IMG/VR virus record: IMGVR_UViG_3300032893_000008
Span: 1 to 64,000 of that record
Strand: one strand, 5' to 3'
Length of the DNA stretch: 64,000 nt
Source: a virus
Numbering within the stretch: position 1 is the first letter of the stretch; each line of letters opens with the position of its first letter. Shown one piece after another: positions 21,370 through 22,081 of this stretch. The notes under the pieces were generated by a model. It ran no database searches and was not told where the DNA came from. It saw nothing but the letters and a program-made list of their open reading frames with translations. The translations under genes and the position numbers were made by a program.

Positions 21370-21729
21370 TTACTTCCAAAGCTTGTATTTCTTGAACGTC
21401 TCCCGCATCTTACCAGAAATGGGTTCCGTAGTCAAGGCCGTCCAACCCATGCCATGATCAGGTTCGAAGAAGATCTCATGTCTAATGCCGGCTTTGGTCA
21501 ATTCTTCAGCAGCTACCAGAAGAGCGGCCTGGTCCGGAACCTGCAAAGCGATCAGGCTGGCCACCTCACGCTCGTGTCGGATTTGGCCATCGGCCTGCAC
21601 GGTAGTGCCGATGCTAGGCCGATAGAACGCAGCACCAGCTTCCAGACAAGCATGGCCGAGCTGCACTAGCTGATTCCGTAGCCGGATATCCGTCCGGACG
21701 ATCACGTAGACGTAAGGCTTACCGTCCAT
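21370..21729 (-). CDS. Peptidyl-tRNA hydrolase, Pth2-like
   Basis: 119 residues from ATG 21729; the frame stays open upstream but only by overlap with the preceding gene. PYVYVIVRTD, LGHACLEAGAAF and KAGIRHEIFFEPD fit the Pth2 family (usual length about 115), which frees tRNA from stalled peptidyl-tRNA. The start overlaps the stop of the amber-containing gene (ATGGACGGTAA), and three tRNAs plus the suppressor tRNA follow on the same strand, pointing to a tRNA-recycling operon. Confidence 0.72.
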   Translation of the reverse strand: MDGKPYVYVIVRTDIRLRNQLVQLGHACLEAGAAFYRPSIGTTVQADGQIRHEREVASLIALQVPDQAALLVAAEELTKAGIRHEIFFEPDHGMGWTALTTEPISGKMRETFKKYKLWK

Positions 21730-22081
21730 TGATGACCTCACACAGGAGGGGAACGATTTGCGCTGGATCAATGATTTCCCCGAAGAGAAAGGTGAGATCT
21801 TCCCGGAGATGTTCCGTTGCGACTTGGTCGAAGCTATTTTTGCGACGGAGGTAGGCACAAATCGATCCCCAAACTTCCAGGCGGGCAGGCCGAAAGCCAT
21901 TTTCGAGCTTGTTGTGGTTGGTGGGCGCGGTGAGCCCGCGGTCCCAAGGAAGCCCCCTAAGTATGGCGTAGAGGGCGAAATGCCTCGCCGTAAGGTGGTG
22001 CTTCTTCTCAGAGTTTACCGTTCGGCTCCAGGCGGAGCGAAGGGCGGGATGGACCTAGATCGTATCGTTGGGGAACTTCAT
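21719..22081 (-). CDS. Gene with an in-frame UAG at codon 9 (120 codons)
   Basis: ATG 22081 follows a strong AGGAGG site. The frame reads MKFPNDTI, then TAG at 22055-22057, then 111 further open codons to TAA. The part after TAG has clear protein character (for example HFALYAILRGLPWDR and EDLTFLFGEIIDPAQIV). No ATG, GTG or TTG codon exists in frame after the TAG, so translation must pass it. The phage encodes a CUA tRNA 1.1 kb downstream on the same strand. Function of the product unknown. Confidence 0.75.

Follow-up and report, generated by a model that had tools for sequence, protein, structure and literature searches.

How can a phage gene be expressed when its ninth codon is UAG? The question is raised by a reading frame, here called gene A, that lies in a 64,000-nucleotide stretch of viral DNA (the window) forming part of the 119,223-base IMG/VR virus record IMGVR_UViG_3300032893_000008. 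Gene A reads MKFPNDTI*VHPALRSAWSRTVNSEKKHHLTARHFALYAILRGLPWDRGLTAPTNHNKLENGFRP...VINGR* from 22081 to 21719 on the minus strand (asterisks mark stop codons), and the first-pass annotation of the window proposed that it is translated through the in-frame UAG with the help of a tRNA encoded by the phage. This proposal is supported by homologs that carry a sense codon at the interrupted position, by amber codons (TAG in 50 of 50 cases) in the family of a neighboring gene, B, that resembles peptidyl-tRNA hydrolase 2 (PTH2), and by an adjacent amber suppressor tRNA (Sup-CTA). We conclude, with a probability of about 0.8, that gene A is part of a conserved module of A and the PTH2-like B, accompanied by an amber suppressor tRNA, and that its full-length product is made only via readthrough of the UAG. 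Readthrough by the suppressor tRNA is the most economical reading of gene A, and the case in the window is one sequence in a family whose pattern has strong support.

Gene A and its homologs

The ATG at 22081 follows an AGGAGG site (the start region reads GCAGGAGGCAACAAATC-ATG), codon 9 is TAG, and the 111 codons downstream of it are open and devoid of ATG, GTG and TTG, all as first described. The codon after the TAG is GTC, which places G at the +4 position. The whole record contains 564 frames that run from stop to stop over 80 codons or more, and that of gene A is the sole start-poor one among them to combine a codon score not below zero with a location in otherwise unannotated DNA; its coding status is shown by sequence homology rather than by codon statistics alone. 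Searched directly, the 111-amino-acid protein had no homolog in INPHARED, PHROGs, Pfam or IMG/VR (a match to Bacillus phage Stills, E = 2, was dropped as not colinear), and a pattern built around the TAG gave chance matches only; homologs were reached only via a search of IMG/VR for the motif TNxNKLxNG. They number seven loci of our designation (L038, L027, L013, L046, L102, L008 and L035) and about 20 more, and the final alignment holds 29 sequences, the window protein included. A profile made from five homologs, with the window sequence left out, gives gene A 53 bits. By core motif and colinear homology the window protein belongs to this family, which lies near phrog_22448; that group itself matches three of the homologs, and not the window protein. 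On such evidence gene A represents a genuine family of phage genes.

The position of the TAG within this family bears directly on how the frame arose. Homologs with a sense codon at this position, which the first-pass annotation had named as a check on its proposal, were looked for and found: they begin at the equivalent ATG and usually carry Glu where gene A has its TAG. In the five closest homologs this residue is the Glu of (T/S)KEQ(Y/F), the alignment being ungapped for most of the residues placed at the TAG. The fold predicted from the 29 sequences is a small all-helical domain (predicted local distance difference test score, pLDDT, 81.5) in which the TAG falls just ahead of helix 1 (residues 10-22), an earlier model from eight sequences having been poor; a PDB search with the predicted fold gave no significant relative.

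The PTH2-like neighbor, amber codons in its family and suppressor tRNAs

Gene B, whose ATG overlaps the 3' end of gene A (ATGGACGGTAA), matches Pfam PF01981 at 24.4 bits (cutoff 23), as 22 of 35 B-family members match it at E values up to 0.01, and the B-family profile matches peptidyl-tRNA hydrolases in the PDB (24bt, the best, at E = 8e-6, and 2zv3 at E = 2e-3). By homology gene B is a PTH2 relative, with predicted hydrolase activity. It starts MDGKPYVY and contains no TAG, so that an in-frame TAG in the PTH2-like gene itself is not found in the window. About 20 phages besides this one, and an Agitococcus contig, have gene A directly 5' of B, the two are fused in further phages, and contigs L008 and L035/L133 have the same A-B pair with the TAG located in B. 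Four phages with A and no detected B carry one or two Sup-CTA tRNAs immediately 5' of A. In L046 (4338-5765) and L047 (4990-5742), gene A is preceded by two Sup-CTA tRNAs, which are separated by a gene resembling that of ribosomal protein bS21, and is followed by an HNH-like gene.

Decisive support came from a set of 130 phage B loci, enlarged by a pattern scan of IMG/VR, in which we took the nearest in-frame stop 5' of the domain at each locus and scored the interval between stop and domain for ATG, GTG or TTG. Fifty loci have none of these codons in that interval, and the stop is TAG in all 50, with TAA or TGA in none. An ATG usually lies 1-4 codons ahead of the TAG, which is codon 2-9 in most cases, a range that includes codon 9 of gene A. 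The 50 start-TAG loci represent 41 distinct contexts, 33 clusters at 70% identity and 14 at 50%; taking the TAG share of long open reading frame (ORF) terminators at the same loci (33/141), the chance of an all-TAG outcome is about 1.5e-21 for 33 clusters and about 1.5e-9 for 14. At six more loci (L136, L208, L209, L213, L130 and L187) B is interrupted internally by a premature stop, which is TAG in every instance, and in four of these six it lies in the same loop after the first helix (...DT*WRNG, ...DP*VKNW, ...NH*GSEW and ...DT*TWHN). Amber codons in the B family are very probably programmed.

GAP32, CBB, ME3 and LR756511 are among the 50. The start-TAG genes open MAQ*NEKTW (GAP32, CBB), MTH*NDKTW (BF), MT*IHENKK (ME3), ML*NKHW (Arash) or MTH*VETPY (LR756511), and fusions of an HD domain to PTH2 (L107, L108, L122, L212 and L184, comprising XacN1, RAS14 and IMG/VR contigs) have the TAG 2-7 codons past the start, as in MK*TIKAMK (XacN1), MK*TLNKL (RAS14) and MNLA*TINSMK (L212), with TI(N/K)xMK conserved after the TAG in some members. 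A B tree of 102 columns, many of whose forks are open, requires a minimum of eight changes of the start-TAG state along branches with good support, indicating that it has been gained or lost repeatedly. The codon after the TAG varies (GTT, ATT, AAT, GAA, AAA and others), and a purine follows the start-TAG in 39 of the 41 distinct contexts versus 49 of 95 TAG terminators of long ORFs at the same loci (p = 2e-7). A purine at +4 favors amber suppression (PMC6266110) and +4U favors termination (PMC5289835), and constraint on the residue after the TAG could contribute to the purine bias. Gene callers truncate or miss these genes: public annotation often shortens or omits the PTH2-like gene at the TAG (L104-L113: ME3, XbC2, GAP32, BF, CBB, Kaldavass and Arash), with GAP32_397 given a late start inside the domain and no coding sequence annotated there in BF.

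The same loci are linked to suppressor tRNAs. In the window, the tRNA that the first-pass annotation took to read UAG is an intact tRNA with a CUA anticodon (Table 1), whose ARAGORN label, Pyl, comes solely from that anticodon. It lies 422 nucleotides past the end of B on the same strand and about 1.1 kilobases (kb) downstream of the TAG of gene A, closing a one-strand order of A (with its TAG), B and then tRNA-Gln, the large-D-loop tRNA, tRNA-CAT and tRNA-CUA, so that the window holds a PTH2-like gene with a Sup-CTA tRNA nearby, as expected of an amber-gated PTH2 module. Across phages, where Sup-CTA tRNAs are pattern matches confirmed with ARAGORN (ME3 being counted from its annotation), one is present in 83 of 115 records with B and shares a locus with B in 67 cases, in 62 of which both are on one strand and no more than 3 kb apart, the distance often being a few hundred bases. 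None was confirmed in 41 unrelated contigs (about 2.1 megabases), a comparison that is indicative because the control contigs are smaller on average and many have few tRNAs; many B loci are contig fragments, in which the absence of Sup-CTA is uninformative.

Table 1. Coordinates of gene A, gene B and the associated tRNAs in the window.
Feature	Position	Strand	Basis
Ribosome-binding site region GCAGGAGGCAACAAATC, just 5' of gene A start	22082..22104	-	AGGAGG 9 nucleotides ahead of ATG
Gene A, ATG-to-TAA frame of 120 codons, one in-frame TAG, core TNxNKLxNG	21719..22081	-	homologs and profile
In-frame TAG, gene A codon 9	22055..22057	-	sequence; precedes predicted helix 1
Gene B, PTH2-like, 119 amino acids	21370..21729	-	Pfam PF01981 and PDB profile matches
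tRNA-Gln(CUG)	21292..21365	-	tRNA search
tRNA with greatly enlarged D-loop, anticodon GTT (Asn) by eye	21199..21286	-	47 bits to Rfam tRNA model; missed by ARAGORN
tRNA, anticodon CAT	21117..21192	-	tRNA search and Rfam
Amber suppressor tRNA, anticodon CUA	20871..20948	-	57.7 bits to Rfam tRNA model; ARAGORN

Three other features of the DNA were recorded. A 104-nucleotide tRNA-like match at 1431-1534 (+) scores 39.6 bits to the Rfam model and was not called by ARAGORN. The gene 5' of gene A (22125-22574, minus strand) is Pro/Thr-rich, with a lipoprotein-like signal (MKLAIYASVVAIACSVYLGLACQ) and a poor codon score, and an ORF at 13426-14562 (-) matches endonuclease VII/HNH in its N-terminal half and Mom-like DNA modification families in its C-terminal half.

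Readthrough and its alternatives

Functional readthrough of codon 9 of gene A is likely, and we infer that the phage tRNA decodes this codon. Full-length A would be made only when the phage tRNA(CUA) outcompetes release factor 1 (RF1) at codon 9, and through the UAG the output of the module would follow suppressor activity, much as RF2 (release factor 2) output follows termination through the UGA in frame in prfB. As the suppressor tRNA accumulates, A and B would be made, and the PTH2-like enzyme might then clear peptidyl-tRNAs arising from early drop-off or from stalled or readthrough ribosomes, or might act on the suppressor tRNA itself, the net effect of which would be to limit the cost of suppression. 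Peptidyl-tRNA hydrolase (PTH) recycles peptidyl-tRNAs dropped in the first codons, especially with a poorly served A-site codon (PMC10192219), and early UAG codons contested by RF1 and the suppressor would be likely sites of such drop-off. We advance this specific homeostatic role, with its putative feedback, only tentatively.

Several observations weigh against this reading. The TAG of the window lies in A and not in B, and TAG occurs at this position in none of the 28 other aligned gene A members, so that the case rests on one sequence; the phage is remote from those known, the best identity of its DNA polymerase to a phage record being about 29-30%, and no close relative of it was found. 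Gene A scores -0.007 bits per codon versus 0.34 +/- 0.12 for the long genes of this phage, and a single-base change turns GAG into TAG, as a random nonsense mutation of that codon would. Gene B has its own GAGG and ATG and may not depend on A: the two genes may be coupled, and because of that GAGG the dependence of B on the UAG is uncertain. A start TAG is not obligatory, since Sup-CTA tRNAs are common both with it (45 of 56 records) and without it (38 of 59), which indicates that the tRNA goes with the module and that the TAG is an optional feature. Strong suppression would also be costly, because TAG terminates no fewer than eight further genes here, each with a long in-frame extension up to another stop, 24-143 codons in most of them. 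Genes at 106956-107447 (+) of the record and 52678-54354 (-) of the window end in TAG, and the ATG of the next gene lies in the same frame, directly at that TAG or shortly past it (TAGATG; TAGAGTATG); suppression would fuse the two proteins. The in-frame pairs after the TAG-ending genes at 31686, 53062 and 106956 were considered as further readthrough cases and rejected, as the downstream frames have their own starts, some with a Shine-Dalgarno sequence; the sequence beyond 31686 has matches, beginning at its own ATG, in another small family, and the pairs read as ordinary adjacent genes.

The uniqueness of the TAG among A homologs, the one-step route from a conserved Glu codon and the atypical codon usage would all suit a gene A that is normal apart from a nonsense change of recent origin or an error of sequencing or assembly, with the tRNA coincidental or merely tolerating the lesion. 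Yet the remaining frame and the core motif are intact, the genome yielded no second gene interrupted by a nonsense codon, and the codon concerned is the one read by the phage's own tRNA, in a type of operon with recurrent amber codons and with a +4 purine as at the B-family sites; we therefore regard mutation or error as unlikely. A different device is suggested by the PTH2-like nature of the gene product and by the position of the amber codons at codons 2-9, a zone of drop-off in E. coli whose products are recycled by PTH (PMC10192219): the early UAG could act as a minigene that provokes peptidyl-tRNA drop-off to which the PTH2-like product responds, any readthrough being incidental. Any stop would serve such a device, yet TAG alone is used, a Sup-CTA tRNA lies adjacent, and the downstream gene has no other start, which makes this explanation improbable.

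The first-pass annotation had itself allowed for an eight-codon leader peptide followed by a decayed gene, and a Shine-Dalgarno sequence and ATG followed by a short ORF ending in TAG are what such a leader would look like. As the origin of the frame this option falls away, because in the homologs one protein begins at the corresponding ATG and continues past the site. A variant of it, in which translation begins at a non-standard start codon after the TAG, is opposed by the variable codon at that place in the B family, hence no start codon, and by the lack of a second Shine-Dalgarno sequence apparent by eye; either version is highly improbable. The TAG would be unremarkable if UAG encoded an amino acid throughout this phage, and both the Sup-CTA tRNA and the rarity of TAG as a terminator (about 11 of 148 called genes) are what a recoded genome would have. 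However, 119 kb contain only one gene with an in-frame TAG, reading TAG as sense raises coding density merely from 0.914 to 0.931, and several complete genes end in TAG, so that phage-wide recoding is barely credible. In B-carrying phages more generally, the gain in coding density from reading TAG through is no greater than that from TGA or TAA, which indicates that these phages are not globally recoded; an apparent TAG-specific rise on short loci was rejected, as the TAA and TGA controls rise equally.

Relation to known systems

We propose that a self-contained decoding switch is present in numerous unrelated phages that use the standard code. It would combine tRNA(CUA) with a PTH2-like hydrolase and, in many cases, a small partner protein of helical fold; one protein gene would be amber-gated, and the hydrolase would track suppressor-tRNA activity and limit or buffer suppression, a generalization that we place a little short of even odds. 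If it is true, suppressor tRNAs would be tied to peptidyl-tRNA recycling. Amber suppressor tRNAs have been reported by several groups in phages without amber recoding (PMC5852040, PMC12386605), and the module points to a concrete candidate target for such tRNAs in the jumbo phages GAP32, CBB, Serratia BF and ME3, in the cultured Salmonella phage Arash and in many metagenomic phages. We found no paper on an association of amber-codon PTH2 genes with suppressor tRNAs, in a search that covered few subscription journals or preprints.

In carrying Sup-CTA without visible amber recoding, the phage of the window resembles XacN1 (PMC5852040) and the zeta crAss-like phages (PMC12386605). The authors of the XacN1 study sought a target gene for its suppressor tRNA and found none (PMC5852040); the amber-gated HD-PTH2 gene of XacN1, which opens ATG AAG TAG, is a candidate for that target, although another ATG follows soon after the TAG. 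By its PF01981 and PDB profile matches, gene B is homologous to the archaeo-eukaryotic PTH2 of jumbo phages, which the relevant passages of PMC7824862 note as a possible ribosome-rescue factor and in which amber codons are not mentioned.

The arrangement also recalls phages that use genetic code 15 (crAss-like, Lak and others), in which a phage-encoded tRNA(CUA) reads in-frame UAG, as it probably does here. In those phages the codon is read in many, mostly late, genes and coding density is raised, unlike the phage of the window, which encodes the Sup-CTA tRNA and shows neither many genes with an in-frame TAG nor a clear gain in density; here UAG terminates elsewhere and is in frame in one module. 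Another parallel is prfB, where RF2 is controlled by its own in-frame UGA (PMC12421855). In both cases a stop near the start of a translation-factor gene would set expression by pitting termination against a recoding event, with the differences that a UAG and a suppressor tRNA take the place of a UGA and a frameshift, that the encoded protein resembles PTH2 where prfB specifies a release factor, and that feedback is proposed here. If the gate works in this way, it would be a natural switch for suppressor-tRNA-dependent expression of a single gene and a counterpart to the autoregulation of prfB.
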